A DNA stretch of 64,000 nucleotides from Rhyzopertha dominica (Eukaryota; Arthropoda; Insecta; Coleoptera; Bostrichidae). Where the stretch lies: NCBI GenBank assembly GCA_025024175.1, contig QCXZ01000045.1, positions 5,249,533 through 5,313,532 of the forward strand. Reading direction: 5' to 3'. Below are positions 5,851 to 44,758 of this stretch, one piece after another. Numbering within the stretch: position 1 is the stretch's first letter; every line of letters begins with the position of its first letter. The translations under genes were made by a program, and so were the position numbers. The notes under the pieces are model-generated. The model searched no databases and was not told the DNA's origin. It saw only the letters and a program-made list of their open reading frames with translations.

Positions 5851-6620
5851 TCAATGTTGTTTGTTTGACGCACAAATTGGTAGGTTTTTTGGTGAATAAA
5901 AATATAGAGTTAACGTTGGAAAGTAGGGATTTGTAATTTTTGCATCGCAAACAAACAAATTGTACAATCTTAGAGACAATCCTAGCGAATTCAGTCCATA
6001 TAAACTGAACAATGTGAAAGTTTTTATTGTACTACATGTATAGTTAGTTTCAAGCGGCTTATTGCGATGAAAATCCGTGTCCTTTGTTGAATTTATCAAA
6101 TTTTAAGAATATATCTCCAACTGCTGTAGTTAATTACCGACAACAAAACGAACAGATTAAGACGGGCTCTATAAATATTAAAGTGGAGTTTGAAACGGGA
6201 AGTGGAGGCATACCAGCCAATAGGTCAGCGTTCTGTTTATTGCTCCATGATAGAATATTCGATTACTCCTCTACTCACTGTGGATGTGATACGGTTGATA
6301 TAAATGCTCGGTCGAAATCGAGGAATGGATAGCTTTTATTTCTCTTCGTTGATATCCTGCTAACCATGGCTCGAGCGTCATCGTCAACAACGAACTNGAT
6401 TGTGATGTACGTCTAGGATCTAAGAGGAAAGGACAACGATTTTATTTTTAAAGAGGTTGCAGGTTGCGGTTTCAACAGCTGTTGGAACTTCTTCTTTCTC
6501 CATTTCTTCCATCATTGCAGGGTTGCTGGTTACGTTCGTACATTGACCTAGGACATTCTGTGTCTTTCTGGTATATCTATTGCAATTTCTTGTTCTCCTG
6601 CGATTATGGGATGATCTATT
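5851..6620. other. Unassigned stretch with a short coding-like ORF
   Basis: No family recognised. The plus frame at 6084-6332 (82 residues) contains NIKVEFETGSGG and SAFCLLLHDRIFDYS and looks protein-like rather than random: it has alternating hydrophobics and balanced composition. It has no partner and ends without a visible domain. An N at 6397 marks an uncertain base. It may be a fragment of a mobile-element gene. Confidence 0.3.
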
Positions 6621-11125: not shown

Positions 11126-11220
11126 GAAACGTCGTGGAACAGACTCTGCACGGAGCTTTTCACACCCCATGCGAGAAAACTTTGAAAGGTATGTTAATAA
11201 TAACATATATATATATATAT

Positions 11221-15590: not shown

Positions 15591-16950
15591 TTTCGAGATA
15601 ACTGCACTACAACACCCTGTAATGCTTTCCGTCCTAACATCGGATGAAATGTGCCCTTAAATTTAAATTTTCCTACAACAATCGCCAGTATCTCATTCAT
15701 TACTAGCACTTGTATTTGGACAAACGTGAAATTGCTCTTTCCGTGTTCCAACACAGACGCCAAAGAACTATTTTTACTTACAGGCTAACGATGACTTAAC
15801 GAATACCTATTGAGCCCACAGAAGCTCTGCTTATTATCATTTTACTAAGTTATTGTTTGTCGGTTATTTATTATTACATACAGTGGTAATTTCACAATAA
15901 TGATTTATGTACTGTAGTTACGCTGTTTACCACCAAATAATTCGAATGCACAGTTTTCTCATTTCAGTACTACTATACTATAGTATCAAACCAGCAAATA
16001 TTTTAGTGTAATACGTGAGTATGATGTAATGTAAAAATGGCGTTCAATTCGCTTTAATTGACCTTGAATAGCAATTTTTTCGTTTATTTTAAACAATTTG
16101 TATTAAAAAATGTTTGGATTTTAAGTGAAGGTTTCGATACTTTAATTATAAAAATAAAATTATTAAGCGAGACGAATAAGTGTATTCGATGTGATTGCCC
16201 TTTTTTGCAAATGCTTAAAATACTGAGGTCTTGTCTAAATCATCTCATAATTTTTTTAAGCTTTCTTCTATGTCATAATGTATTTACTAAATAATTTCGC
16301 TGTGGAAAATGAAAGGTGCAAGAGAATTCATATGCCCTCTCAAAACATCTACTTATAATATGAATCTTTGTTTTTGGCAGATTTTGTTTTAAACACGCTT
16401 ATGCAGTTGTTCTATCTGGCCGCGTATGCTTTGGGCTTTTTGATGAACTCCTATCCTATTTTACGCAGATACTTTTATGCATTACCGTTTCACCCTCGTT
16501 TTGTGAGAAATTAAGCGCCTATTTTTTAAATAAACTGTAGTAAAAGGCTATTGCATCATAAAAAAAACATAGCACCGAAAACACTATAAACGTGTGGTAC
16601 GACAAAGGCCTGCTTATTCTTTTTAGTACTTCTTAGACAGTTTCAATTCATATTTATTCAAAAATGCTTAACGCGACCCATAAAAGAGCACAAATCTCGC
16701 TAACTTTCCAAAATACAACGTACCCAGCAAGTACGCATAATTGCCAGTTTTCCTGGATGCCATTCTGAGTGCAATCTCGACCGCTCATGTATATACCGAA
16801 TGCGATGGTCGCGCCAACTACAGAAGACTGCGCTGAACTAGGCAATATACAAAGAGTCGGGGTTGGTGCAAAATAACGTCCGGCTAAATTTTGCTTCATT
16901 GGATGGAGAACAACCCATAGTAGCCGTCCTTAAAATATTTCATGTGAGTC
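15591..16950. other. Spacer, nothing recognised
   Basis: Short ORFs at 16058-16294 (plus) and 16654-16899 (minus) have no recognisable motif and are not supported by context. No inverted or direct repeat pair was seen by eye. Confidence 0.3.
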
Positions 16951-16981
16951 AAGGTGGCATCCGTATATCGGATGCCACCTT
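16951..16981. repeat. Perfect 13-bp hairpin
   Basis: AAGGTGGCATCCG, a 5-base TATAT loop, and CGGATGCCACCTT form a perfect inverted repeat, about 60 bp outside the AT run of the young PLE pair. Purpose unknown; it does not look like a TIR because nothing matches it elsewhere nearby. Confidence 0.7.
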
Positions 16982-17038
16982 ACCCCGGACGCCAACTTTA
17001 CCGCTATTTTAACATGGGAGGATGCCAACTTGTGCGCG

Positions 17039-17039
<1 letters not shown>

Positions 17040-17112
<73 letters not shown>
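17040..17112. repeat. (AT)n microsatellite, left border of the PLE pair
   Basis: A pure AT run of about 72 bp directly abutting the tail of the minus-oriented PLE copy. Confidence 0.9.
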
Positions 17113-17292: not shown

Positions 17293-18747
17293 TTACGGTC
17301 CGGTATGCCTTTGCTGTGACTGTGCTTGTTGGCGTGTCCTACTCCGTGTTCTAGGCAAACTGGCTTGTGCCCCCCCTTGAGACAATATGACGCTTTGCTG
17401 CCTGCTGATAACCGGTACATTATGGGAACTTTGATTGTTCAGCATTGCCTCGGCTCCCGTAGCAGAATCATTTTCTGTATTGAGATTGATTGTGCTTGTG
17501 ATAACTGGTTCTATTACCGTGGTCCAGGTGTGTGGCAATCTTTGTCCGTCATCCCGTTTGTTTAAACAGTCGGGTCGTTTTTCTATTTCTATAGCTTCCC
17601 TTATTGTTCTTATTGTTCGGTTCTTGGAAATTGCCAGGGTTCGCGTCTTCTCAAAGTTTATTTGGTGACCCGTAATTCTTACGTGTGCCGCTAGAGAGGA
17701 ATTCTTGTCATCTTTTACTACCGCATTAACATGTTCGGCTCTTCTTACTTCAATCCTTCTGTTAGTCTGACCTACATACGACTGGGCGCATGTACCGCAT
17801 GGTATTTCATACACCCCTTGGGCTTCCAATGGTATACGTTCCTTAGGATTACGTATTAGCGTATTTATCTTTTTGTGTGGTCGAAAGACGGCCTTGATCT
17901 TATGCCGTTTTAGTATCCTACCGATTTTGTCAGTTGTTCCTCTGATATATGGTAAGAAGGCAATTCCAGTTGGTGGTTCGTCTGTATCATTACGTTGTCG
18001 TCTTGGCCTGAGTGCTCTGTTTATAACTTTTTTAGAAAATCCATTGTTAAGCAGTGTAGATTTGATGTATTTCATTTCAGCGTCGTTACTTTCTTCGTCG
18101 GCTAAACGTTTCGATCTCGTTAAAAGTGTTTTAGCCACTGAGTATATTTGCGCTGGATGATGGTGGGACGCAGCGTTAAGATAGCGATCCGTATGTGTTT
18201 GTTTTCTGTATACGGTGTGTCCAAGGGAACCGTCACGTTTTCTTGTCAAGAGCACATCTAAAAACGGCAATTTGTTGTGCTCTTCTATCTCCATTGTGAA
18301 ACGAATTTTGCCATGTTGACTGTTAAGGTGATCCAGGAAGTTCTGTAGGGCTGCCCTGCCATGCGGCCAAATTACCAGTGTGTCATCCACATATCTTAAC
18401 CATAGGGTCGGTTTTTGTGTGGCGGTGGTAATCGCCTTGGTCTCGAAATCTTCCATAAATAAGTTTGCTATGACCGGCGATAACGGCGAACCCATTGGTG
18501 CTCCTTCTATCTGTTTGTAGCGCTGTCCGTTATAAATGAAATAGGTATTATTTAAACAATGCTGGACTAAGTTTAAGATATGGGATGGCGGTTTGTATTT
18601 TTCTTTTATTATCTCCAACGCTTCTTCCACTGGTATTTGGGTAAATAAAGATACCACGTCAAAGCTAACCAAGAGGTCGTTATTTGTTATGGGTGTGACC
18701 TTCAAGATGTTAATAAGGTGATCAGCATTGCGCATACAAACCGCCAT
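17293..18747 (-). CDS. PLE reverse transcriptase / GIY-YIG protein, left copy (5'-truncated)
   Basis: An open frame of 484 codons with no internal stop. It includes RT motif A (LVSFDVVSLFTQIP, about 18655-18695, encoded in the spacer), motif B (GAPMGSPLSPVIANLF), motif C (LRYVDDTLVIW, about 18375-18405), FLDVLL, then the GIY-YIG nuclease (GVYEIPCGTCAQSYVGQTNR with its R and E/H residues). A basic, Gln/Arg-rich tail follows. The N-terminal third of a normal PLE protein is missing, so the annotated ATG is only the first in frame. PLE proteins copy RNA onto nicked chromosomal ends; the palm and nuclease motifs look intact here. Confidence 0.85.
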   Translation of the reverse strand: MAVCMRNADHLINILKVTPITNNDLLVSFDVVSLFTQIPVEEALEIIKEKYKPPSHILNLVQHCLNNTYFIYNGQRYKQIEGAPMGSPLSPVIANLFMEDFETKAITTATQKPTLWLRYVDDTLVIWPHGRAALQNFLDHLNSQHGKIRFTMEIEEHNKLPFLDVLLTRKRDGSLGHTVYRKQTHTDRYLNAASHHHPAQIYSVAKTLLTRSKRLADEESNDAEMKYIKSTLLNNGFSKKVINRALRPRRQRNDTDEPPTGIAFLPYIRGTTDKIGRILKRHKIKAVFRPHKKINTLIRNPKERIPLEAQGVYEIPCGTCAQSYVGQTNRRIEVRRAEHVNAVVKDDKNSSLAAHVRITGHQINFEKTRTLAISKNRTIRTIREAIEIEKRPDCLNKRDDGQRLPHTWTTVIEPVITSTINLNTENDSATGAEAMLNNQSSHNVPVISRQQSVILSQGGAQASLPRTRSRTRQQAQSQQRHTGP

Positions 18748-18836: not shown

Positions 18837-20039
18837 ATGGGTTCGCCGTTATCGCCGGTCATAGCAAACTTATTTATGGAAGATTTCGAGACCAAGGCGA
18901 TTACCACCGCCACACAAAAACCGACCCTATGGTTAAGATATGTGGATGACACACTGGTAATTTGGCCGCATGGCAGGGCAGCCCTACAGAACTTCCTGGA
19001 TCACCTTAACAGTCAACATGGCAAAATTCGTTTCACAATGGAGATAGAAGAGCACAACAAATTGCCGTTTTTAGATGTGCTCTTGACAAGAAAACGTGAC
19101 GGTTCCCTTGGACACACCGTATACAGAAAACAAACACATACGGATCGCTATCTTAACGCTGCGTCCCACCATCATCCAGCGCAAATATACTCAGTGGCTA
19201 AAACACTTTTAACGAGATCGAAACGTTTAGCCGACGAAGAAAGTAACGACGCTGAAATGAAATACATCAAATCTACACTGCTTAACAATGGATTTTCTAA
19301 AAAAGTTATAAACAGAGCACTCAGGCCAAGACGACAACGTAATGATACAGACGAACCACCAACTGGAATTGCCTTCTTACCATATATCAGAGGAACAACT
19401 GACAAAATCGGTAGGATACTAAAACGGCATAAGATCAAGGCCGTCTTTCGACCACACAAAAAGATAAATACGCTAATACGTAATCCTAAGGAACGTATAC
19501 CATTGGAAGCCCAAGGGGTGTATGAAATACCATGCGGTACATGCGCCCAGTCGTATGTAGGTCAGACTAACAGAAGGATTGAAGTAAGAAGAGCCGAACA
19601 TGTTAATGCGGTAGTAAAAGATGACAAGAATTCCTCTCTAGCGGCACACGTAAGAATTACGGGTCACCAAATAAACTTTGAGAAGACGCGAACCCTGGCA
19701 ATTTCCAAGAACCGAACAATAAGAACAATAAGGGAAGCTATAGAAATAGAAAAACGACCCGACTGTTTAAACAAACGGGATGACGGACAAAGATTGCCAC
19801 ACACCTGGACCACGGTAATAGAACCAGTTATCACAAGCACAATCAATCTCAATACAGAAAATGATTCTGCTACGGGAGCCGAGGCAATGCTGAACAATCA
19901 AAGTTCCCATAATGTACCGGTTATCAGCAGGCAGCAAAGCGTCATATTGTCTCAAGGGGGGGCACAAGCCAGTTTGCCTAGAACACGGAGTAGGACACGC
20001 CAACAAGCACAGTCACAGCAAAGGCATACCGGACCGTAA
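18837..20039 (+). pseudogene. PLE reverse transcriptase / GIY-YIG, right copy (lacks RT motif A)
   Basis: 400 codons identical to the corresponding part of the left copy, starting at the MGSPLSP methionine. Because the inverted arm begins at 18734, everything before motif B, including the catalytic Asp of motif A, is absent. Motif C YVDD is at 18939-18950, the GIY-YIG segment at about 19515-19580. It is a truncated gene fragment despite the clean frame. Confidence 0.8.
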
Positions 20040-25814: not shown

Positions 25815-25820
25815 ACCAAT

Positions 25821-27470
25821 AGTAGGGGAAAAGCGCCGTTCTGGTGTCACATTTGCATATTTGCATATTAATAAGGGTAATTAAAACAATGGGTAATTAA
25901 TTAATTAAAACAATTAGTAATTAATTAAGACAATGGGTAATTAGCGATTTTGATGAACTAATTAGGGTAATTAGCAGTTTGATTAGGGTAATTAACGGTT
26001 TGATTAGGGTAATTAATAGTTTGATTAGGGTGATTAGCAGTTTGATCGGAGTAATTAGTGATTCTGATTAATTAATTAGGGTAATTAATAGTTTGATTAG
26101 GATAATTAGTAGTTTGATTAGGTTAATTAGAGATTTGATTCGGGTAATTAGCAGTTTGATTAGGGTAATAAGTGATTATGATTAATTAATTAGGTTAATT
26201 AATAGTTTGATTAGATGAATTATCAGCTCAATTAGGGTCGTTCTGGCTTCACATTTGCATATTAATTAGGGGTAATTAGCGGTTAATTAAGTTAATTAGC
26301 TGTTTAATTAGGGTAATTAGCGGTTTAATTAGGGTAATTGGCGGATTAATTGATTGATTAGGATAATTAGAGTTTTGATTAGAGTAATTAGACTTTTATT
26401 AAAGTAATTGTCTGTTTTATTAGGGTAATTAGAGTTTTGATTAGGATAATTAACGGTTTTAATTGATTGATTGGCATAATTAGAGGGTCTAATTAGCGTA
26501 ATTCGCGGTTTTGATTGATTGATTAAGTTGATTCGCGGTTTTAATTAGGCTGATTCGCGGTTTAATTGATTAATTAGGACAATTAGCCGTTTAATAAGGG
26601 TAATAAAAGGTTTATTTACGGTACTTAGCTTATAGCGGTTATAATTGATTGATAACGATAATTAAGGTTTTAATTCGCGGTTTGGATTAATTTATGACTA
26701 ATGATATGGAGGTAATTAGCGATTTAATTATAATTAGCGATGTGTACTTACACATTTCTTACTACAGCCGTACAACGTCAATTCATATATGCCAAGCTTC
26801 GAGGCTGGTTTGTATATATAACCTCGGACAACCCCACCTTATCGACAAAACCTATAATTTATGGGTATAAATCACCTGTCAAGGAAAGGTAAGGTCCTTT
26901 GTTCCCTAATCCACCCTCATTAAATCACCTTTGTTGTCTAATTTATGGGAGACCCGTTGTAACAAAAGAACATCTGCTCCTTTGTGAGTGTACCTACGTT
27001 AAATCGCCTGTCAAGGAAAGATAAGATCCTTTGTTCCCTAATGCATGGGAATGTGGGTGGTCTACATTAAATCTCCCGAAACTAAAGACCTCCTGCCCCT
27101 TTGTTCCCTAATTTATGGGAGACCCGCTGCAACAAAAGAACATCTGCCCTTTTGTTCCTTAATTTATGGGAGACCCGTTGCAACACCTGCCCTTGACCAC
27201 CCATCGAGAACCCTCATTAAATCACCCACAACAAAAGAACATCTGCACCTTTGTTAAACTACCTGCCTGCTCCTTTGTTCCGGACCTGACAGGTTCAAAC
27301 CTGCCTTTTATCCCCTAGCTCTCCCACGCTGTAAACTGTATATAAAGCGCCCGCTTCGGTATACCTGTTAGCTAGTTTGCGTGCTTGGTGACTATACGAG
27401 TATATATACGAACGTGCTTTATATGTGTAGTGCTACAAGTTACTAAAAGGTAAATTAAAATGGATTCACT
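25821..27470 (+). repeat. Left TIR (1,650 bp) with two minisatellites and a promoter
   Basis: In order: a 40-bp unique tip; about 890 bp of a degenerate roughly 22-bp unit (core TTAGGGTAATTAG...GTTTGA); a unique block; several copies of a roughly 53-bp unit (TTTATGGGAGACCCGTTGCA core, about 26930-27250); then a TATA-box promoter and ATGGATTCACT. Homology to the right TIR stops at 27470. It is longer than the right TIR because of extra copies of the 22-bp unit. Confidence 0.85.
27339..27346 (+). promoter_or_regulatory. TATA box in the left TIR
   Basis: TATATAAA, about 120 bp before the conserved ATGGATTC start that both TIRs carry. In the left TIR the reading frame ends at once (TAGTAG after four codons), so the promoter is orphaned here and would drive transcription into the element. 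Confidence 0.5.
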
Positions 27471-27486
27471 GTAGTAGAAGGCTGTC

Positions 27487-27990
27487 ACAGCAGCTGTCTC
27501 ACTCATTTGCATATTAGCCTATATGAGCATGTGTAATTCGCTGTTGCAATTAAAAAAATTGAAAAAAAAATAGATTTTTTCTTTTTGCAGAATTCTTGCA
27601 TATGGTGGTATTGGATGTGGAATATGATATTATGACTAGAATTTGCATGTTGATAAATAGTATTAGCGAGTTCATTAGGCGTATTTTCGCAAAAAAAATC
27701 ATTTTTTCTCGGATTAATGAGCTGTTTTTTTTTCTTTTTAAGAGGATAATTTTTTATCTTCTCTGTATAAGTTATAGAAACGGGATTTGATCCGAATGTT
27801 TTTTGTCTAAGGAAGCTTTTTTTGAACTCATTTAAATATTACTTACCCTTTTTCAGTGGCATATACACACTTGAAAACAAAAACTCAGTTTANNCATCAC
27901 TTTTTTCGAGCTGGAATGGTAGGACAACAGCGAAAGACATACATGTAGACTAGGAATNTTTTTTTTTATTTTACTTACTATTACAAAACA
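27487..27990. repeat. 3' flank of the RING gene, shared with 37655-38124
   Basis: Long words such as tttgcatattagcct, gagcatgtgtaattcgct and tcgagctggaatggta recur in the same order and orientation at 37655-38124. There they lie directly beside the second RING gene. This shows that the 18S-ORF segment was inserted between this flank and the gene. N bases lie at 27893-27894 and 27959. Confidence 0.7.
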
Positions 27991-27997
27991 ATTATAT

Positions 27998-28800
27998 ACG
28001 GCTACCACATCCAAGGAAGGCAGCAGGCGCGCAAATTACCCACTCCCGGCACGGGGAGGTAGTGACGAAAAATAACGATACGGGACTCATCCGAGGCCCC
28101 GTAATCGGAATGAGTACACTCTAAACCCTTTAACGAGGATCAATTGGAGGGCAAGTCTGGTGCCAGCCGCCGCGGTAATTCCAGCTCCAATAGCGTATAT
28201 TAAAGTTGTTGCGGTTTAAAAGCTCGTAGTCGAATCTGTGTCCCGCGCCACCGGTTCATCGCTCGCGGTGTCTGACTGGCGTGTTCGTGGGACGTCCTGC
28301 CGGTGGTGCCGTGCGGGGCGCCGGTGCGGCTTCGTCCCAGGTGGTCGTTGTCCGTGTCGTGCGTTTCCGTGCGGCCCAACTCTAAAATCCCGCATCGGTG
28401 CTCTTGACTGAGTGTCGAGGCGGGCCGGCACGTTTACTTTGAACAAATTAGAGTGCTCAAAGCAGGCTAAAACTTCGCCTGAATACAAGTGCATGGAATA
28501 ATGGAATAGGACCTCGGTTCTATTTTGTTGGTTTTCGGAACCCCGAGGTAATGATTAATAGGAACGGATGGGCGCATTCGTATTGCGACGTTAGAGGTGA
28601 AATTCTTGGATCGTCGCAAGACGGACAGAAGCGAAAGCATTTGCCAAAAACGTTTTCATTGATCAAGAACGAAAGTTAGAGGTTCGAAGGCGATCAGATA
28701 CCGCCCTAGTTCTAACCATAAACGATGCCAGCTAGCGATCCGCCGACGTTCCTCCGATGACTCGGCTGGCAGCTTCCGGGAAACCAAAGCTTTCGGGTCC
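27998..28800 (+). rRNA. Partial 18S rRNA (central part, about 800 nt)
   Basis: Unmistakable small-subunit rRNA, sense on the plus strand. It runs from ACGGCTACCACATCC through GTGCCAGCCGCCGCGGTAA and a GC-rich V4 region to GAGGTGAAATTCTTGGATCG and GAAACCAAAGCTTTCGG, then stops abruptly at 28800. Both ends are truncated, corresponding roughly to nucleotides 400-1150 of an insect 18S. It is highly conserved (a few substitutions, such as GGTTTAAAAGC), so the capture is recent or is an assembly join. It cannot function as a ribosomal RNA. Confidence 0.93.
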
Positions 28801-29875
28801 AAAATTCATTGAGCTGGCCAGACGGTAATTCCATCATGGCATAATCGATGTTACCATGTTGATCATTTACTGCATCGGGATTGCGTAACCCATCGGTGTA
28901 ATAGTTACTCATTAACAGACTATGACAGCCAGGCGCAGTGGAGGTGTAATTAAGAGCGCTAGAATTGTCAACATACTTGACGGACTTTCGCGCACAGAAT
29001 CCGAGTAGATTCTTTACTCGATTAGCGTCCTGCTCAAGCATCTCAACATCATAATCTTCAGGCATGAAATCGTCCGGATTGAGCAGCAATGGGAAATCAG
29101 GATGATGCTGTTGGTCGGCTCTTCTCCTGTGTCCGGGGGCTAGAACTGGTCCCCATCTTGCTCCGGGTAGAGGGCTACTTTGGTAAAACCTCATCCTCAC
29201 ATGTTGTGGCGTGGCTCTTAGCGAAAGTGCAACAACTACTTGACGTAGTGTGCCGAAAGTCACGAGATGCGCTTCAGGCTGCATCACGTTTGGGCGTGGT
29301 AATCGTGGATAATAGACAGTATCTGCATATTGGAACTGTTCTACAGCATTTACGATATTAGCTAGAGGCCCGAAATTGACAGGTGTTCCCTGTATGACTT
29401 CACGTACGTTAATATCCNCTTGAGGGCGGTAGTACAAGTTGTCGTCATTGGGGTACGGCATAATTTGGGATCGCTGGGTGTTGATAAGTTTGACCTCAAG
29501 TTGGGCGAGAGTCAATCGGTATAGTTCATAGACAGAACACTGAGGGATATTCTTCAAAGTTTGATAAAGTTTAATAAACACGGCTTGACTGAAGAACCCT
29601 ATGCCACGGGTTGAAACTGGAACAATCTTAGCTTGTTCTGTCAGTTCAATAACCTGGGCGGTGGCTGCCTTTACTTCACTTGCGAATCCGAAATATAAGC
29701 GCTTGTCCAATTCCTTTTGCAATTCGGCCATCACCTTGTCGCCGGTAACCTTGCGGTTATGTTCCTGACGTATGCGGTCTCTGGTCCGTTTTGCTTTCGA
29801 CTTCGGTTTTGCTTCTTTCGGTTGGTCTACGGATGTAGACGGTAAGTTTGAGTTTGCTTCGCGTTGATTATTCAT
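28789..29875 (-). CDS. Unidentified ORF inside the long-TIR element, 3' end fused to antisense 18S
   Basis: The frame is open from 29938 to 28712. The preferred start is ATG 29875 (MNNQREAN), because upstream codons are AT-run. About 355 residues are genuine; the last 25 or so (after QLNEFW) are antisense 18S and not native. The N-terminus is Lys/Arg-rich (KPKSKAKRTRDRIRQEHNRK), followed by a mixed globular region with FGPLANIVNAVEQFQYADTV and a Pro/Arg-rich linker. I do not recognise the family; a structural or nucleic-acid-binding protein of a virus-like element is possible but unproven. One codon contains an N (29418). The composition is more balanced than the surroundings. Confidence 0.45.
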
Positions 29876-29947
29876 CTTCACGTTGCAGATTAGCCGGAAG
29901 TCCAGACTAAATATATATAAATGCATATATACATACATATTTAAATA

Positions 29948-31739
29948 CTAAAAGAAAGGATATGGATGATAAGGAGGAGGAGAAGAAGGAGGAGGAGGAG
30001 AAATTCTGGCATAGGGATGCGGATGATAGCACTCAGGTTCTGCAACAAAAAAAGAAAAAAAAACATGGTTTAAGTATTAACAAAAATTATATAGAAGAAA
30101 AACTTTCACCTCTATGACAATGCTGTTTCCCTAACCGCATTGGCCCTACATGCGGCAGTTGCTGATACTCCTGAGACGCCAAATGTTGTATTACCATGTC
30201 GTAAAAGCTATCTAATGAGAAAAAAAGCATGGGATTAGGTTTTTTCTCTAAATTAAGAAAGACTGATTTACCTTTAAAAGGATAGCTCCCTACCATGGGC
30301 TGCCACCGATGCTCATGTATCTGATGTGGAATGGTTGCATCTAATGAGAGAAAAAATGGAATTATATATGTCTAATAATTCTCTAACGACTTACGGTGAG
30401 CAGGAGGGTTCCCTGCTATTGACGATGATCGCGGTGACAGCGCATGCTGCAGTGGAATACTCGCATCTAATGAGAGGGGAAAAACATGAAATTATGTTTT
30501 CTCTAATAATTCTCTAACGACTTACTGTGCATATCCCAGTGTTCATGTATTGGAGACGGTCGATATAACACAGGCTCCAGCGGGTTTCTATAACCCTCAT
30601 CTGCATCTATTGATCAAAAAAGAAACAAAATTAAGTTACTAAAATTAAAAGGAAAAAACTGTAAATTTAATAACTTACTGAAAAATGGCAGCGGCTGTAG
30701 CATTTGCCTATGGTTAGCAAGAACGATCGCCTCCACATCGGGGTGTTCTGCAATTGTAAAGAATGGAAATTGTAAAAAAAATAAAACGATCCTTTAAGAA
30801 TAATAAAAAAACAGGCAGTATTAATTAATTATATTTCTATGTCAAAAGATTACCTACCATTGCGGTTATCCCATTCCCTCAGCGGATGCGCATCATCTAA
30901 TACCTCGGNGGTGGGCATATCGTCTATAGCTATACATATTGGAAAAAAATTTTTTCTTAAGAAATTGAACACTTAAAAATAAATTTAAATAATATTACCC
31001 ATTTGAGGATGCTGGCTATTGACCCACTCTCGGACATGAAGTTCCCTGGCGGCCGCAAATTCAGCATAATCTGTGAAAACCATAACAATTCTTTAAGGAT
31101 AAAGAAAAAACTAAAACTGCTTATATTTACTATCAAATTGTACAAGTTACCAACCATTATAGAGCTCTTGCGATGCTTGATGCTGCGGATCGCCAACTTC
31201 GAATGACTCTGTTTCATCTTCATCACTTCATCACACGAAGTTGCCGTGTTGTCATCATCCGGCAAGGTGAAAATATATGACCGACTTGATGACGATCCCG
31301 ATGCCATGAATTCGTTCAGTGGTCTTATTTCCATTTCGTCAGGGTCAGCGTTCAGTCCCGCTGGAAAGAAGACCTGACAAATGTTTTCAACGAAATTGTT
31401 AAAACGATCCAGCGGAACCTTTTCGACCCTACAAGTCGGACAGCTAATCGTCTTCGAATTCGCTGGCTCCCTCAGTATTTTTTGCGAATGCGCACACGTA
31501 TTGCACACGTTGTGTGCTCTGGGGCAGTAGAATATCCGCTTTGGCGGTGCAAAGGGTTGGAAACACACCGGACATTTCAGCGACCCCCCAACGGCATGTA
31601 ATAACATTACATACCTTACAATTCTGCAAATTAAAAATAATTATAATAATAAATATTATCGACTTTTTAAATATATGTGTACTTACATGTCGTAAGCGGT
31701 GAGAGCATAGCTCCTCAGTCTTCTATTAGCATGCTCCAT
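29948..31739 (-). CDS. Ten-exon RING-finger gene with modular Pro/His-rich tail
   Basis: Reconstructed by splice sites. Exons are 31739-31687, 31623-31151, 31070-30999, 30929-30858, 30747-30679, 30606-30526, 30466-30395, 30340-30272, 30211-30110 and 30039-29948, giving 384 residues, open throughout. Introns are 52-110 bp with GT..AG ends; all but the first are in phase 1. Residues 35-82 form a C3HC4 RING (C35, C38, C51, H55, C58, C61, C79, C82), resembling the SINA/SIAH type; such domains usually give E3 ubiquitin ligase activity. An acidic Ser-rich linker follows. Exons 3-10 encode 23-34-residue modules ending in a Pro/Tyr/His-rich tail. There is no signal peptide or membrane segment. The gene looks intact and is the main cargo of the element. 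Confidence 0.75.
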
Positions 31740-31965
31740 AATAATAAGAAAAATCGTGTGTATCTCAAGGAAACGAACGATATATTCTAAGTTTCATTTT
31801 TTGGTTAAATTTATAACATCGCACACCCCCTCTAGACAAAAACATCTTCTAAAGAGGGGTGTCAACGAAAAATTTGATAGTCTGTCTACATTTGAGAGGG
31901 TGTATTCAGATAAGCGAAAAGTTGCCTTAAATAAGAAACACCTGCACTTTCAATAATTCAAAAGA

Positions 31966-33200
31966 AAATTATAAAAANGCCAGATGACTATCTCACACGT
32001 CGAAAAAAGATAANATCACTCTGATTTAACAAGACCNCCCCATTGCTAAAAAAAAACTCCTGTGTCACATAATTCCGNGGGTGAGTCGTAAAAAAGTATC
32101 ATCTCGAGCATTGGAATTTATCTATTGTCCAGCCCCCCCTCCCCCCCCCGCTGTTCATATATCTAATTCCAAGCCGTCGAGTCTATGCGATATCTCAAAG
32201 GTAGGTCGTTTGTTATTTTTATACCTGGCTACGGACAGCGGTCACCCCATAAACCGACTGATTAAATGCTGACCATAGATTATCAGACGAATATTCAAGC
32301 ATGTATAAAAAAAGAGATCAAAATCTTTTCTGAATAATGAAACTGCTCATTATTAAATCGTATCCCGTCTAAAACGCGATTAGAGAGAATTATACTTAAC
32401 ATTTGCAGAGCGGGGGGTCAGTTCTATAATCATACATGTTTGAACTCTAACATTAATGAGATGCCCTTTGTATTGTTAAAATATATATAGCCTGACATCT
32501 TATAACTTTAAAATTCCAGTGGAAAGATACAATCTTTTCACCTCTAAATAAATACTTTATTCATTGTGACGCAGATAAAATTTGCATTAAGCAATATCAA
32601 TAATGAAATCGGGATACATTTCGGAGAAAACACCTGCGTTTTCAATGGTTAATTTTTAAATAAGGTAATACCATACGTCAAAAAAAGATAATGGAATGAG
32701 TTTCTCCTAATGTACAGCTTTGAATTCCGGCAAAAAGATACGATCTACATTTTTTTTACCCTATAAAGCCCACCCATTGCAAAGCAACTAAAATTCATAT
32801 TGGATGGTATCAATACGGCAATCAGGGTGAATCGGCAGGTTAAGACATGTTTGAAGCTCCTTTTATTATTTAATGAATGCCCTTCGAAGAAACGTGTAAC
32901 ATTTTAGAAATGCAATCTAATACGTCAGAAAGATAATGGAACTAGTTAAGCTGATAGTATCACATCGTGAAAAAAATATAAAAAATACTGTAGGTAATAA
33001 ATTCCAATTGTCAGACTTTTTTTTATCAGAATATACTTACATGCCATATATATCTGTCAGGTATCACCTGCTCTTAGACAAGTTCTAACAAGTTAGAAGT
33101 TTTTTTCTTCTCATGAATGCTTCCCAGCAAAGCAGCTGGTTTTTATCGCCATAATACCTGTCATGTATGATATAACATGAATTCCACATTAAGATCTTTA
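31966..33200. other. Non-coding interior of the long-TIR element
   Basis: AT-rich with N bases at 31978, 32014, 32037 and 32079. A word of about 30 bp (ttataaaaangccagatgac...) at 31970-32000 recurs at 33586-33616, bracketing a duplicated block. No gene was seen. Confidence 0.4.
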
Positions 33201-33210
33201 TCGAATTAAT

Positions 33211-33504
33211 TTAAAAGCAGCTTATTTCTGTATATAAAGACGGAAGGCAGCGTCCCGCTGGAAAGAAGACCTGACAAATGTTTTCAACGAAATTGTTAAA
33301 ACGATCCAGCGGAACCCTTCCGACCCTACAAGTTGGACAGCTAATCGTCTTCGAATTCGCTGGCTCCCTTAGTATTTTTTGCGAATGCGCACACGTATTG
33401 CACACGTTGTGTGCTCTAGGGCAGTAGAATATCCGCTTTGGCGGTGCAAAGGGTTGGAAACATACCGGACATTTCAGCGACCCCCCAACGACATGTAATA
33501 ACAT
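33211..33504 (-). pseudogene. Duplicated RING exon fragment
   Basis: The block 33251-33576 is a direct copy of 31353-31678 with only a few substitutions. It encodes the same RING (all eight Cys/His ligands kept) from MLLHVVGG to VFFPAG, then runs into unrelated sequence. The upstream first exon and all tail exons are missing. This is a partial tandem duplication of the RING gene rather than a second gene. Confidence 0.75.
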
Positions 33505-33609
33505 TCCATACCTTACAATTCTGCCAATTAAAAATAATTATAATAATAAATATTATCGACTTTTTAAATATATGTCAAAATAAAATTATAAAAAAGCCAG
33601 ATGACTATC

Positions 33610-33775
33610 TCACACTCACACTAACTCCATCAGAAATTTCTTGGGCAGTATTCGTCTTGTGGAGATTGCTTCTAGTATGGGCTGGGAAAAGTCTACGTTG
33701 TACATTCAGCTTGCAGTTCTCACAGTATTTGAATTCACTGGATAGCACAGCGTTTTCCTTTGACTCACTTGCCAT
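33610..33775 (-). pseudogene. C2H2-like zinc-finger N-terminus (fragment)
   Basis: From MASESKEN (33775) the minus strand reads KYCENCKLNVQRRLFPAHTR and SNLHKTN, a single C-x2-C-x12-H-x4-5-H finger. Similar lone fingers open several insect mobile-element proteins, including (from memory) replication proteins of Polinton-like elements. It then runs into a short ACTCAC repeat and stops. With no polymerase following, it would be the stump of a deleted gene. Confidence 0.4.
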
Positions 33776-34419
33776 TATACTGAAATAAATCCAACAATAG
33801 AAAAAGAGTGGGGGTGGCATAAGAGATAGAGGGTTGGTCTGCCAGAAATCAGTACTAATGTTCAGTGGTTTACGAGAAGACCTATAAATACTAATGGTAA
33901 GTCTATATTACGATTAAATATGTTTATTATATCTCCTTATTTTTTTTCACTAGGTGTATTCAAAACGCAAGTCTACATCCAAGGCAGCTTTAAGGCGTCA
34001 CAGTGTCAGTATTAACAGAAGGCTGGCATATCTACTTAATAATATTAATAAACTTAAGGTTGAATTAGCAATGTATGATATTAATAAAAAGCTTAATATC
34101 TTAAAGTTGTAACTGGAAATATTTTTAAAATAAATGAATGTATATATACCAGCATTTGTACTTAATTCCAGCGCAAGCTGAATGCCAAAGTAACAGATCA
34201 TTTTTTTAACATATTATTTTAGCTAATTATATACCAAGAAAAAAAAATCCTATAAGCAAATATTCAAACAGTACTCACCTTTTCTAATGACTGGAGCTAT
34301 AGTTGAAAAGTATGCGTCTATTGTGCGGGCTTATATATACGAGTATGCTAAGTTATACTTATAAATTATTTAATATTATTGAGGTAATTAAACTACTCAT
34401 ATGTGCAAGCTAAATACAA

Positions 34420-34763
34420 TTATAATTCTCCAAACTGAAATAGTTGTGTGGCTTTTGCACCTTCATAACTCTTTTTAGACCCTAGATATTTTAAATACTT
34501 CGATTCGGGCCGTGAATTAAACGAGTTAATCACTTCTTGCGAGAAACATTTATTTAGCCTACTGGGTAGGAATAAAATTCGCTCGTCAACACTTTCGTCG
34601 CTGTTCTGAACCTTAATAACCGCACTTGTGCATAACCCGAATCTAGTCTGCATTTGCTTTATCTTAACAACGGGGTATATAGTACCAATTTTAGGATCAT
34701 CAGGTTTTATTTGATGATTTTCAAATTTTGGGACCTCGGATGATAATTCATTTAGTGAATCAT
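34420..34763 (-). pseudogene. Small conserved gene starting in the right TIR, start codon region frameshifted
   Basis: The frame that ends at 34420 (SKYLKYLGS, then ATQLFQFGEL) aligns with the ORF at 44495: shared features are MDSLN-LSS, TRFG-CT, IKV, ILFLP-LNK-FS and IN-FN. The ATG at 34761-34763 belongs to this gene, but one G is missing right after it compared with the left TIR and the second copy. Translation from there hits TAA at once; the next in-frame ATG is 34653. Ancestral length was about 115 residues. The fold is not known to me; the pattern recalls small OB-fold ssDNA-binding proteins, which is speculative. The promoter lies in the TIR. Confidence 0.6.
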
Positions 34764-36230
34764 TTTAATTTACCTTTTAGTAACTTGTAGCACTACACAC
34801 AAAGCACGTTCGTATATATGCTCGTATAGTCACCAAGCACGAGAGACGCAAACTAGCTAACAGGTATACCGAAGCCGGCGCTTTATATACAGTTTACAGC
34901 GTGGGAGAGCTAGGGGATAAAAGGCAGGTTTGAACCTGTCAGGTCAGGAACAAAGGAGCAGGCAGGTAGTTTAACAAAGCTGCAGATGTTCTTTTGTTGT
35001 GGGTGATTTAATGNGGGTTCTCAATGGGTGGTCAAGGGCAGGTGTTGCAACGGGTCTCCCATAAATTAAGGAACAAAAGGGCAGATGTTCTTTTGTTGTG
35101 GGTGATTTAATGAGGGTTCTCGATGGGTGGTCAAGGGCAGGTGTTGCAACGGGTCTCCCATAAATTAAGGAACAAAAGGGCAGATGTTTTTTTGTTGCAG
35201 CGGGTCCCCCATAAATTAGGGCGCAGATGTTCTTTTGTTGCAGCGGGTCTCCTAATAATTAGGGAACAAAGGGGCAGGTGGTCTTTAGTTGCGGGAGATT
35301 TAATGTAGACCACCCACATTCCCATGCATTAGGGAACAAAGGATCTTATCTTTCCTTGACAGGCGATTTAACGTAGGTACACTCACAAAGGAGCAGATGT
35401 TCTTTTGTTACAACGGGTCTCCCATAAATTAGACAACAAAGGTGATTTAATGAGGGTGGATTAGGGAACAAAGGACCTTACCTTTCCTTGACAGGTGATT
35501 TATACCCATAAATTATAGGTTTTGTCGATGGGGTGGGGTTGTCCGAGGTTATATATACAAACCAGCCTCGAAGCTTGGCATGTATGAATTGACGTTGTAC
35601 GGCTATAGTAAGAAATGTGTAAGTACACATCGCTAATTATAATTAAATCGCTAATTACCTCCATATCATTAGTCATAAATTAATCCAAACCGCGAATTAA
35701 AACCTTAATTATCGTTATCAATCAATTATAACCGCTATAAGCTAAGTACCGTAAATAAACCTTTTATTGACCTCATTAAACGGCTAATTGTCCTAATTAA
35801 TCAATTAAACCGCGAATCACCCTAATTAAAACCGCTAATCAACTTAATCAATCAATCCAATTATGCCAATCAATCAATTAAAACCGTTAATTATCTTAAT
35901 CAAAACTCTAATTACCCTAATCAAACAGACAATTACTTTAATAAAAGTCTAATTACTCTAATCAAAACTCTAATTACCCTAATCAAACAGGCAATTACTT
36001 TAATCAAAGTCTAATTACCCTAATCAAACAGCCAATAACTTTAATCAAAACTCTAATTATCCTAATTACAACCTCTAATTATCCTAATCAATCAATTAAT
36101 CCGCCAATTACCCTAATTAAACCGCTAATTACCCTAATTAAACAGCTAATTAACTTAATTAACCGCTAATTACCCCTAATTAATATGCAAATATGCAAAT
36201 GTGACGCCAGAACGGCGCTTTTCCCCTACT
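34754..36230 (-). repeat. Right TIR (1,477 bp)
   Basis: The reverse complement of the left TIR: tip 36191-36230, the 22-bp unit over about 35630-36175, the 53-bp unit over about 34975-35470, TATA at 34882-34889 and ATGATTCACT at its inner edge. It has fewer copies of the 22-bp unit and more of the 53-bp unit than the left TIR, so the two repeats have drifted in copy number while the unique parts stayed similar. Confidence 0.85.
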
Positions 36231-36236
36231 ACCAAT

Positions 36237-38124: not shown

Positions 38125-39394
38125 TTAACTAACAAAAATAAACAGTTCAATAAAATGGGGGGGGAATGGATAATAATATTCTGCAACAAAAAGAAAAACA
38201 TGCTATAAGTATTAATAAAAATTATATATAAAAACTCTCACCTCTATCGTATGGCCGACCTGCCATCATTCCCAGCGGCCCTGCATAAGGCGGCTGGGGG
38301 TAATATACCGGCCATATGGGAGGNTGGATGTGGATTGGTTGCGGCATCTGCATTGGCGGCGGCGGCATCTGGATTGGCGGTGGCATAGGCCATCCGATAA
38401 ACCCATCTAATGGAAAGAAAGAAAAGTATGAAATTAGGTTTTATCTAAAAAAATAAGAAGGAATGACAGTGACTTACGGTTTACCGGATAGCCACCTCCG
38501 TGGATAACCGTGGCATATACATGTTATCAGCGTCTAATGAGGGAAAAAAAAGAAAAATGGAATTATGATTCTCTAATAATTCTTTAATAACTTACGGGCA
38601 AAGACATGGTGTCCTGCTTGCGGTGGGGCTGGGTAGAACACCGGCATATACGGGTTTCTATAACCCTCATCTACATAAAAAAAAAATTAAAAAATTATAA
38701 CAAGAGCAAATGCGATGACTTACTGAATACCGGTGTCCTCCGTCCTGCATTCAGGTCCACCGTGTCATCGTCGTTTAGGAGACCGGGTTGTTCTGAAATT
38801 GTAACAAATAGAACATTAAAACTTGCTAAACAGTGGGTTTTTTTTAAAATAAACTCACCTATATCGGCTTCAGCCGGAATATCATCGTCGTCATCGGAGA
38901 GGGCGATGACTAGAGACCCCTCCGATAACGGCGGTGTCGGCAGTCCAGGATGCATAGCTTCAACATTTTCTTCGTGATGAGCTTCGATTTCGAGCTCACC
39001 ATCCTCAAATCGGTCGGCTCGAAACAGCTCATCCCGTACTGCTTCGGCTAAAATATTGAAGCCGTCCCTCCGTATCCGGGATGATCTGCATACCGGACAG
39101 AGGACATCCCGGTGTTGCATCTCTTCTCGCCCCAGCAAAATATCAGCGCAGTCCCCGCAGATACTGTGCCCCAGTCCGCAAGACACTATCCGCACCGGAG
39201 GCGCGAATGCGGTAAGGCAGATGGGGCACTTTAGTACCCGGGTCATTGCATTCAATAATGCCATGGTTTTTAGGTATCTGTAAACAAATTAAAACAAAAA
39301 AGTTGTAGAAATTATCCAAGCTTTAAAAACAACAGTAAACTTACACATTGTACAGGCGAGCTGTATAATTTCTCAGTGGGCGAACTGCTTCCAT
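38125..39394 (-). CDS. Second RING-finger gene, seven exons, one-base deletion in exon 5
   Basis: Exons: 39394-39345, 39277-38859, 38792-38724, 38670-38596, 38533-38478, 38406-38242, 38180-38125. The first intron is phase 2 and the rest phase 1, exactly as in the first RING gene. The RING is C34, C37, C50, H54, C57, C60, C77, C80. The linker is acidic (SDDDDDIPAEADI), and the tail exons are rich in Pro, Met and Tyr; both genes share an EGYRNP module. Exon 5 is 56 bp where 57 is needed, so the frame breaks there; correcting it gives about 296 residues. This may be a real mutation or a consensus error. Proteins of the two copies are clearly diverged, so the duplication is old. Confidence 0.7.
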
Positions 39395-40781: not shown

Positions 40782-42165
40782 CTACAAATCAATGCATTTA
40801 ATATCTCTAATTGGTAAATTCCTATTAATTCTGGAATCTAATAATTCTGGTAACAGTGCTGAAGTATAAAATTTTTTTAATTTATCAATTATCAAATTGT
40901 TCCAAAAATCTCTATTTCTTTCAATTATTTCACAGTGATGATCTAAATGTGTATATATAAAAAAGTAACAAAAATTTCTATTAGTAATTTCCAATAAACC
41001 CTGAATTTGGTACATATAATCGTGGTTGTGTTTTAATTTTATTTTACCCTCTGAATCTATATAACAATATTGAATTTTTTTTTGCTCAATGGCACATTGA
41101 ATATTCATGTCTCTTGCCGAATATGGACATTTAACTTCTATTATTGAATTTTCATCTACAATACCGTCCGGTGAAGCAGCCAGAAATTTATAAGTGTTAT
41201 GAATAAACAAACCACAGTTTCTCACTACTAAATTAAATTTTTCTTCGAATAGATCTATTGCCCGACGTTCGTTACATATCCCATGTTCCAAACTTTTTAC
41301 TCCAGATTTGCAGGTAGAATATAATAAATTCTTTACTAAATTTGCTGTGGAAGTTGTCGGCCTCATTTTGCAAATTTTACCAAAGTTACTGCCTGTAAGC
41401 CTGAAAGATTTTTCACTGAACCATTTTGGATTACTGCTCTGACCGCGTGTAATTTGTTCAATTTCAGAGCAGTTTGCTAATTGTAATTTATCTAAATAAT
41501 CTTTTCTAATTTCTGCAAATTCTTCGTTACTTTTGTCATCAATTTCTTGAGAATCGCCGTTACCGTAGTCCGCATCCGGATCCTGTATTTTGAAATTTTT
41601 ACGATATGTTTTTTTATTTTTGGGTGCAGGTTTTGATGTGCAAAATTTTGTTGTGAACTTGCCTAATACCTTACTTGTGAATTTATTTTTATTAATCACA
41701 TAAAAAAAGGGCAGTTTAGAATTAAAATTTATCGAAGCAGCAAGACACCTAGTTTCGTACGAGGCGCCAAGTGAAAAATTTATTCGTTTTCCTCCAACTA
41801 ATTTATTTACTGAACTATTAAAAGATTCTGCATGATTTGTGTCTACATCATGGAGTAAACTAGAAGAATGGACTGCAAGTCTATTAATAATTTTTTCAAA
41901 ATCGGCATAAACATGACTCTGACAAAATAGGGTATATAAATTATCTTCGCCTACTTTTGGTCCAAATATTCTTGACAATGATCGTGATGGCCTAAAATGT
42001 GTTTCGGGCTATTTAAAATGTCCAATTTTAACTTTTCGATTTTCAGATGCAAAGGCATGTTTTTATTTTTATAATATCGAAGGGCACTAACCACCGCAGT
42101 TCGAAAGCGTAAAATATTGTTTCGTAAAAACAGTCTTAATTTTCCATCCAGCCGGGAAGTATTGG
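40782..42165 (-). pseudogene. Transposase with C-terminal YqaJ-type exonuclease domain
   Basis: The clean frame is 41978-40782 (398 codons). It extends upstream to about 42165 in a second frame (AVVSALRYYKNKN, HILGHHDHCQEYF), joined by a one-base deletion at about 41962. The first part, with HHDHC and NHAESFNSSVNK, matches the end of the insect Mutator-like/Kolobok-type transposase domain. The second half is a lambda-exonuclease/YqaJ fold: RLTGSNFGKIC, SLEHGICNERRAI, then AASPDGIVDEN and IIEVKCPYS (the D...E-x-K metal site), then YQIQGLLEIT. YqaJ domains are 5'-3' exonucleases. The N-terminal catalytic part of the transposase is missing, so this copy is dead. Confidence 0.7.
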
Positions 42166-44494: not shown

Positions 44495-44758
44495 ATGGAT
44501 TCGCTTAATAATTTGTCGTCACAAATCCAACAGACGGAAATTAAAAAAATAGCAATTGCCGAACTTAAGATCGGCGAGGCCTACACTATCGTGAAAATGA
44601 AACAAAGTCAAACGAGATTTGGTGTCTGCACATACGCGATAATAAAAGTTTGCGATGCTAACGAAACCGTGAATAACCAAATATTATTCCTTCCGGCCGG
44701 GCTAAATAAAGGCTTCTCCCCTGACACAATTAATATGTTCAATGCCAAGCCTGAGTGA
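44495..44758 (+). pseudogene. Second copy of the small conserved gene, 3'-truncated
   Basis: 87 codons from ATGGATTCGC. A TATA box (CTATAAAA, about 44296) lies 200 bp upstream, as in the TIR copy. The protein matches the 34.4-kb gene along its length (MDSLN-LSS, KIG--Y--VK-KQ, TRFGVCTYAIIKV, ILFLPAGLNKGFS, FNAKPE) but stops at TGA where the other continues with SKYLKYLGS. About 25 residues are therefore lost. Conservation of sense codons between two otherwise diverged copies suggests it was under selection. Function unknown. Confidence 0.6.

Follow-up and report, generated by a model that had tools for sequence, protein, structure and literature searches.

Within the 64,000-nucleotide stretch of the Rhyzopertha dominica genome that we analysed (the window), an element about 10.4 kb long lies between two copies of the 6-bp duplication ACCAAT (Table 1). 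Direct reading gave its tips as AGTAGGGG...CCCCTACT. Global alignment of the two terminal inverted repeats (TIRs) yielded 1,290 matches, 36 mismatches and 475 gap columns, corresponding to 97.3% identity over aligned bases; many of the gap columns arise because the outer ~500 bp consist of AT-rich tandem repeats that differ in length. A chance origin of the TIRs is ruled out by ten base shuffles, which scored at most 162 compared with 1112 for the real pair. The perfect duplication, the AG...CT tips and the inverted TIRs of 1,650 and 1,477 bp, all reported in an earlier sequence-only reading, were thereby borne out.

Table 1 Features of the element, in positions of the window
Feature	Positions	Strand	Basis or remark
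Target-site duplication ACCAAT, left, 6 bp	25815..25820	.	Read directly
Left TIR, 1,650 bp	25821..27470	+	Outer part is AT-rich tandem repeats
18S rRNA internal fragment, ~800 bp	27999..28800	+ (sense)	SSU_rRNA_eukarya E 2e-155; ends set by eye
Capsid-like ORF, 353 codons, open	28801..29881	-	Protein relatives come from contigs of 1.2-1.7 kb
RING gene model, ten exons, 384 codons	29948..31739	-	GT-AG introns and open frame; exon ends picked by eye
RING exons 1-5	31739-31687, 31623-31151, 31070-30999, 30929-30858, 30747-30679	-	Gene model
RING exons 6-10	30606-30526, 30466-30395, 30340-30272, 30211-30110, 30039-29948	-	Gene model
Partial second RING exon copy	33252..33575	-	97% identical to 31355-31678; present also in C44 and C137:34.08
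Internal deletion junction, few filler bases	33615..33623	.	C44 has ~4.2 kb more here
Polymerase-gene start remnant	33626..33880	-	85 of 214 residues of N-terminal ORF, 94% identical
Small gene read out of right TIR	34423..34761	-	113 of 116 residues, 92%
Right TIR, 1,477 bp	34754..36230	-	Global alignment with left TIR
Target-site duplication ACCAAT, right, 6 bp	36231..36236	.	Read directly; right junction and flank also in sister copy C44, 99%

The ten-exon gene model between the TIRs is predicted to encode a RING-finger protein. Intron 1 is in phase 2 and introns 2-9 are in phase 1, and the frame is open, with one N. The spliced ten-exon RING gene proposed earlier is thus confirmed as a model, with 384 open codons and nine GT-AG introns. 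Pfam placed the predicted protein below the cut-off for Sina_RING (E = 3.5e-5; 24.3 bits, cut-off 29.3), and the duplicated RING exon at 33211-33504 scored 29.4 against the same cut-off. With the full-length protein as query, a search of 5.8 billion proteins returned no relative at E ≤ 0.001, and we therefore read its function from the domain. A scan of viral_contigs with the RING query likewise returned no relative.

The 18S rRNA fragment, for which the model match itself extends over 27882-28868, abuts the capsid-like ORF. This ORF lacks ~50 C-terminal residues, and its frame continues into antisense 18S. Twelve relatives were found, none carrying a virus name and some located in the Pieris and Ignelater genomes. 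The family gave no Pfam match at cut-off except through a Myb/SANT domain in one relative (P0007), the ORF matched no PDB sequence, and a viral_contigs scan with it returned no relative. Two structure models of the family (pLDDT 39.9 and 48.2, poor) gave no match in a PDB fold search (best E = 7.3). We regard the ORF as putatively of the RNA-virus-segment type, a candidate endogenous capsid of a partiti-like (segmented RNA) virus. By our reading, Penelope-like sequence lies at or near the chimera site in two related copies.

The right part of the element contains the polymerase-gene remnant and the small TIR gene, whose start appears shifted in the window copy and is present in other copies. 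No working core gene was found between the TIRs, and the window copy gave no integrase, ATPase or jelly-roll capsid match. The polymerase remnant, the 18S piece and the capsid-like ORF had been overlooked in the sequence-only reading.

Core-gene relatives and the internal deletion

A TIR query on the genome gave at least 109 matches, from which 13 other insertions were paired by eye; copy numbers are therefore lower bounds. Three loci stand outside the pair count: C136:41.19, which has two left ends and showed no partner; C44:869.7, where a left end alone was found; and C44:617, a right end that belongs to the sister of the window copy. Six-base-pair duplications and the same tips, proposed earlier as a check on other copies, were present in the window and in 13 of 13 other pairs, one duplication containing an N. 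Copies are 10.4-31.6 kb long, some being swollen by other insertions.

Copy C64:54.96, whose right arm is 94% identical to window positions 33623-35680, encodes a predicted integrase with rve (6.5e-14; 52.5 bits, above cut-off) and Chromo (1e-6) domains, an ATPase (Pox_A32, 6.4e-8), a double-jelly-roll capsid (DJR-like, 1.1e-68) and a phospholipase A2-like protein (Phospholip_A2_4, 6.1e-12), a domain known from parvovirus VP1. The rve match of C137:34.08 falls below the cut-off (29.7 bits, cut-off 32.6), and two further copies have integrase matches at 59-61% identity, with stops. The polymerase candidate is a 979-residue ORF with YTDTDS and other motifs that we take to be those of B-family polymerases. 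Pfam gave it no polymerase match (best, Endonuclease_7, E = 0.067), PHROGs yielded no polymerase, its matches being weak ones to endonuclease VII and one to a family of unknown function, no PDB sequence match to a polymerase was obtained, and a viral_contigs scan returned no relative. Because no library names a polymerase, the putative PolB identity is read from the motifs. Among the candidate ORFs tried, Pfam gave no match to an adenovirus-like cysteine protease.

With an rve and chromodomain integrase, a Pox_A32-type ATPase, a double-jelly-roll capsid and a motif-recognised polymerase in related copies, the family is, to judge by its predicted proteins, a Polinton family. Another transposon class with 6-bp duplications could be entertained from the window copy by itself, which has no diagnostic enzyme; since copies with the same tips encode an integrase with chromodomain, an ATPase and a jelly-roll capsid, we give this reading next to no probability. 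The earlier description of a Polinton-type element stripped of its core genes is supported to the extent that the family has core genes and the window copy none that works. The search that it suggested, for a copy with a retroviral-type integrase or PolB, found the integrase; it also found a polymerase, assigned to the B type from its motifs only.

The sister copy in contig C44 has a right end 99.4% identical to that of the window copy with the same flank, and another 2.5 kb of flanking sequence matches at 99.0%. Its additional interior of ~4.2 kb includes the polymerase gene start. Because C44 shares the right junction and retains this stretch, an internal deletion accounts for part of the gene loss in the window copy. 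In C137:34.08, the nearest copy after C44, the integrase match is full-length and the polymerase gene is partly preserved. In light of these comparisons, the window copy belongs to a core-gene lineage and underwent a deletion of its own; it is not a purpose-built carrier.

Contig C45 carries the window at its end, a near copy is present in C44, the window sequence includes 24 N's, and the deletion joint occurs in C45 only. These circumstances would suit an assembly artefact, with a false join at the 18S/capsid-like stretch or at the deletion joint. In C44, however, the 18S/capsid joint and the RING region recur at 99.2% identity to the window, and C44 is a distinct sequence, with an undeleted interior and its own DDE_Tnp_4 (Harbinger-type) insertion that the window copy does not carry. 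As C44 shares the joint yet differs elsewhere, the 18S/capsid joint has been assembled in two distinct sequences, and we consider a mis-join highly improbable.

RING lineages and the core-less subfamily

Core-gene copies carry the RING gene too. Across four RING lineages (A, B, C and D), the first exon is 50-53 nt long and ends in phase 2 at GTAAGT. Ten of ten further copies of lineages A-C passed the same test, compared with a background of 3/1020 stretches in the window and 9/2028 stretches of 13 loci, RING genes included. Eight residues that we take to be the zinc ligands are invariant in all four lineages. When small phase-1 exons were sought by motif, five of the seven small internal exons known from the window gene were recovered; lineage C gave candidates at two positions and lineage B at one, so that conservation of the downstream exons is supported within subfamily A alone. 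Between C44 and the window, exons 1-9 of RING_A differ by 4.5 synonymous changes over 226 sites and 5.5 non-synonymous changes over 830 sites.

The lineages are strongly diverged (30-32% identical over the exon, 40-49% over longer matched stretches), which would fit a host gene family captured several times by Polintons. We find repeated capture rather unlikely: the four lineages have the same kind of first exon, the RING gene lies between the left TIR and the capsid gene in 3/3 subfamily B copies, and in lineage D a relative of the small TIR gene of the family is found ~5-6 kb away from the RING gene. The placement of the gene in the left half in A and in the middle in C favours neither view.

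The zinc ligands and the small first exon common to four lineages indicate that the RING gene is not casual cargo. Its earlier interpretation as cargo of a stripped element was not borne out, as core-gene copies share the gene and its first exon; late capture by a stripped element is ruled out by its presence in those copies.

A stripped class is nevertheless present in the same genome. Subfamily C is a young group of nine copies, 10.5-30 kb long, whose searched stretches showed no core gene (nine copies, with C64:35.39 covered over 9.65 of ~17 kb). Inverted arms of 2.7-6.1 kb were seen in seven of the eight copies examined, and 14 ends of the nine copies are 94-99% identical to those of core-gene copies. 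The RING gene is present in 7/9, its exon having one- or two-base gaps in three of these seven. Across five aligned places from four copies, three have one gap base and one has two; the one ungapped pair shows no synonymous and two non-synonymous changes. Several independent insertions with one core-less interior were found for subfamily C and not for the window copy. As far as their sequences go, subfamily C copies are non-autonomous, gene-carrying Polintons, forming a subfamily separate from the window copy.

The absence of a working core gene between its TIRs, together with the existence of a comparable class in subfamily C, could suggest that the window element itself represents a purpose-evolved non-autonomous class spreading with a captured host RING gene. 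We judge this improbable. The window copy holds a polymerase-gene remnant, its sister C44 retains the missing part, and core-gene copies have a RING gene with the same kind of first exon. Moreover, the two subfamily C copies compared match C137:34.08 and the C44 interior in TIR-type sequence only, and the left end of the window copy is 83% identical to a subfamily B end, compared with 94-99% for subfamily C ends. The new non-autonomous, gene-carrying class proposed earlier thus does not apply to the window copy, given the polymerase start of C44 and the integrase match of C137:34.08; such a class does exist as subfamily C.

Proposed origin and relation to known systems

Very probably, the window element is a damaged Polinton copy with an internal deletion, a chimeric 18S/capsid-like insertion and a RING gene found in four lineages, with the following origin. 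A Polinton integrase would have inserted the element, with a protein-primed linear DNA copy as its substrate. The 18S/capsid-like chimera may have been made by a reverse transcriptase switching templates between 18S rRNA and viral RNA. The RING protein, to go by its domain, could act as a ubiquitin ligase to the element's benefit inside the host cell.

A broader reading is possible, though we hold it to be doubtful: a satellite-like Polinton class whose inverted arms of up to ~6 kb would stem from snap-back errors of protein-primed replication, and which core-gene copies would mobilise in trans through a shared ~490-bp end. Such elements would tend to keep the spliced RING ubiquitin-ligase gene because it is protective, for example against host silencing, and the window copy would be evidence, in addition, that capsid-type genes of RNA viruses can reside in a Polinton. 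Counting against a RING gene kept for use, the exon is gapped in 3/7 subfamily C copies having it and absent in 2/9.

If true, the conserved multi-exon RING gene would be a Polinton accessory gene for host interaction that needs nuclear splicing; intact vertebrate elements are described as intronless in the part of the report available (PMC8097293). The young core-less class with long inverted arms would form a satellite tier under Polintons, whose trans-mobilisation is directly testable. The 18S/capsid-like joint suggests a route for RNA-virus genes into a DNA-virus-like element.

Polintons sit between transposons and DNA viruses. Like non-autonomous derivatives of DNA transposons, subfamily C shares termini with core-gene copies, no core gene having been found in it; unlike the usual derivatives, its copies are 10.5-30 kb long, carry a spliced-type gene in 7/9 and have long inverted arms. 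Palindromic defective genomes are known from adenovirus. Subfamily C also resembles AAV snapback genomes, as described in part of a report (PMC8235507), in that core genes are gone and the arms are inverted repeats. Compared with snap-back defective virus genomes, its copies are integrated, have target-site duplications and keep a gene, and the mechanism would be a presumed one.

The family resembles Polintons/Mavericks, in the portions of the sources available (PMC8097293, PMC4028283), in its 6-bp duplications, AG/AGT-starting ends, long TIRs, rve integrase, ATPase and jelly-roll capsid. Intact vertebrate Mavericks are reported there to lack introns and to have TIRs of 46-1,447 bp (PMC8097293), whereas here we find a ten-exon RING model, TIRs of 1.5-1.65 kb in the window copy and subfamily C arms of 2.7-6.1 kb. 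Intronless genes are a reported trait and not a defining rule; the RING model, with nine predicted GT-AG introns, departs from it. Mavericks of Spodoptera Sf-RVN cells have POLB and a CAP resembling parvovirus VP1 (PMC5803895, in part), and the present family likewise has a phospholipase A2-like protein; in the accessible part of that report, ring fingers are mentioned for the virus database only and not for the Maverick. Finally, insect endogenous non-retroviral RNA virus elements, in the section available (PMC10689555), also place a capsid-like ORF in the genome; here, in contrast, an ORF of putative viral identity is joined to an 18S rRNA piece inside a Polinton.

Polinton copies with and without core genes

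ACCAAT borders the window element, a Polinton-type insertion at 25821–36230, on either side, and the element starts with AGTAGGGG and ends with CCCCTACT. Its terminal inverted repeats (TIRs) of 1,650 and 1,477 bp align with 1,290 matches, 36 mismatches and 475 gap columns, the gaps arising largely because AT-rich tandem repeats differ in length. Across the 479-Mb genome that contains the window, the TIR query yielded at least 109 matches, from which we paired 13 other insertions of about 10.5–31.6 kb, named here by contig and position. The window copy and all 13 others carry these tips and are flanked by a matching duplication of 6 bp (one base of it at C64:36.71 is N). The sequence-only reading had suggested that the element might represent a new non-autonomous, gene-carrying class; we file it as a Polinton copy and its family as a variant of known Polintons.

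Integrase, polymerase and capsid matches occur in all three subfamily B copies, and ATPase matches in two. Pfam identifies the C64:54.96 integrase (rve 6.5e-14, Chromo 1e-6), ATPase (Pox_A32, 6.4e-8), capsid protein (DJR-like, 1.1e-68) and a phospholipase A2-like protein (6.1e-12). Motifs mark the polymerase as a putative family B member; no library searched names it. Many stops lie within the integrase and polymerase matches of C64:25.44, while C137:46.08 has stops in its integrase match and a polymerase match spanning 198 of 979 residues. In subfamily A, the integrase match of C137:34.08 spans all 325 residues and its polymerase match 301 of 979, the latter containing 7 stops; this copy also holds retrotransposon and DDE_Tnp_1_7 insertions. 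Capsid and ATPase matches were absent from the subfamily A sequence searched, which covered the C44 copy in part.

From 33623, the right arm of the window copy is 94% identical to that of C64:54.96; at its start it encodes 85 residues from the first ORF of the polymerase gene. The sister copy on contig C44 shares the window's right junction and the same flank at 99.4%, a further 2.5 kb of flank at 99.0%, and window positions 28383–33615 at 99.2%. Between its two matching blocks, C44 has ~4.2 kb extra, including the polymerase start, so the window copy has lost this stretch through an internal deletion, with a few filler bases at the joint. A DDE_Tnp_4 (Harbinger-type) insertion lies further to the left in C44, and the 5 kb compared beyond it do not match the window. 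The window extends to the end of its contig, C45; part of it recurs at 99% identity on C44, and the two copies may be alleles or a duplication.

Features in the window and copies of the Polinton family
Feature	Position or copies	Strand	Details
RING gene model	exons 31739..29948	minus	ten exons, nine GT-AG introns
18S rRNA internal piece	27999–28800	sense orientation	
Capsid-like ORF	28823–29881	opposite to 18S piece	353 open codons, one N
Lineage D RING gene	38851–39394	minus	diverged; outside the element, starting ~2.6 kb to its right
Lineage D small first RING exon	39394–39345		
Small gene	44495–44758	plus	87 residues, open; 56% identity to the family's TIR gene; right of lineage D RING
Decayed Polinton jelly-roll capsid match	6030–6272	plus	32% identity, with a stop
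Subfamily A	window copy, C44 sister (C44:617), C137:34.08		
Subfamily B	C64:54.96, C64:25.44, C137:46.08		core genes present
Subfamily C	C86:11.89, C64:36.71, C137:21.03, C136:82.49, C136:67.18, C136:51.31, C136:38.29, C136:52.71, C64:35.39		nine insertions
C inverted arms	C64:36.71, C136:51.31		about 6.1 kb, in pieces
C inverted arms	C136:52.71		5.8 kb, 99.5%
C inverted arms	C136:67.18		about 5.8 kb, 97.9%
C inverted arms	C136:82.49; C136:38.29; C137:21.03		4.7 kb; 3.0 kb; 2.7 kb

Structure of subfamily C

The nine subfamily C insertions share a common interior, mostly 96–99% identical with some stretches at 91–94%. Searched with the B proteins, none of them showed an integrase, polymerase, ATPase or capsid match: six were covered by a search that detects these genes in B and partly in A, and three by a second search (C64:35.39 over 9.65 of ~17 kb). 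Compared with the outermost ~490 bp of one B copy, all 14 C ends tested across the nine copies are 94.4–99.2% identical, and two A ends 82–83%. Further inward, similarity to B in the two C copies compared is limited to repeat-type sequence and a stretch of ~400 bp at 93%. Among the eight copies in which inverted arms were sought, C86:11.89 has scattered arm pieces only, with retrotransposon sequence inside. The C copies may have been mobilised in trans by B copies and, by analogy, could have originated like the snap-back defective genomes of protein-primed replicons.

The 18S rRNA piece and the capsid-like ORF

Within the window element, the 18S rRNA piece directly adjoins the capsid-like ORF, which is ~50 C-terminal residues short of its longer relatives. 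A first search found eight related proteins, and a profile of the window ORF and seven of these found 12. Nine of the 12 sit on contigs of at most 1.2–1.7 kb, barely longer than the ORF; of the rest, one is from Pieris rapae and two are from Ignelater luminosus. Such a distribution is consistent with a single segment of a segmented RNA virus plus endogenous copies, and we suspect a putative partiti-like capsid, a name that found no support in library, PDB sequence or fold matches; the sequences could instead be transcripts from an uncharacterised gene or transposon. In P. rapae, the predicted host protein LOC110997957 (P0012) fuses a PF05903 domain with capsid-like sequence, which may reflect an annotation that continued over an endogenous fragment.

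Two related copies depart from the window sequence close to this joint, C137:34.08 at 27883 and a separate left end, C44:869.7, at 27998. We read the sequence beyond both departures as Penelope-like and, because both copies depart into it, the 18S/capsid-like joint would have been made by reverse transcription with template switching.

Elsewhere in the window, 11205–17108 is 90–97% identical to an insertion in C137:34.08 (L009:1064-7182) that we also read as Penelope-like. Two oppositely oriented ORFs, at 17293–18747 (minus), which matches a reverse transcriptase, and at 18837–20039 (plus), share one protein sequence along most of their length. Pfam assigns the ORF at 40782–41978 (minus) a YqaJ-like viral recombinase domain at 8e-17.

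A predicted multi-exon RING gene within the Polinton family

The ten-exon RING gene proposed in the sequence-only reading is borne out as a gene model: its GT-AG introns lie in phase 2 (intron 1) and phase 1 (the remaining eight) and its 384 codons are open, with one unread base. Nine of the ten exons align to their edges with splice signs in the C44 sister, where exon 5 ends 3 bases early. Seven do so in C137:34.08, the exceptions being an insertion within exon 2 and early ends of exons 7 and 8. Exon 10 differs in length from the window in both copies.

RING sequences fall into four lineages, A–D, of which A–C are also subfamilies of the Polinton family. RING is found close to the left end of all three B copies, within the left half of A, and in the interior of seven of the nine C copies; the lineage D gene probably belongs to the remains of an older Polinton that surround the window element. 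RING exon identity to A is 30–32% overall and 40–49% over longer matched stretches, and all eight zinc ligands are invariant across the lineages. In every lineage the first exon measures 50–53 nt and ends in phase 2 at GTAAGT. This exon is present in 10/10 further copies of lineages A–C, against a search background of 3/1020 stretches in the window and 9/2028 over 13 loci, RING genes included. The small downstream exons are demonstrated in A alone. A search with the full protein, requiring shared 5-residue words and similar length, returned no relative at E ≤ 0.001. Because the zinc ligands are invariant and the first exon is common to the lineages, these sequences are best explained by a RING gene resident in the family, with an old, selected and spliced ancestry within Polintons. 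In subfamily C, the absence of RING from two of the nine copies and the gap bases in the RING exon of three of the other seven (C64:36.71, C136:51.31 and C137:21.03) speak against kept RING function.

We found no report of a RING gene inside a Polinton in the passages compared from the open-licence literature (PMC5803895, PMC4981718, PMC8715426, PMC3630058 and PMC7786948; the comparison also covers passages of PMC4028283, PMC6431247, PMC6035795 and PMC2836005), and PMC11071308 does not use 'ring' as a separate word. Non-autonomous Polintons or Mavericks were likewise not found reported as a named type in the open-licence literature covered. According to PMC8097293, vertebrate Mavericks have TIRs of 46–1,447 bp and intact copies are intronless, whereas the inverted arms of subfamily C reach about 6.1 kb.
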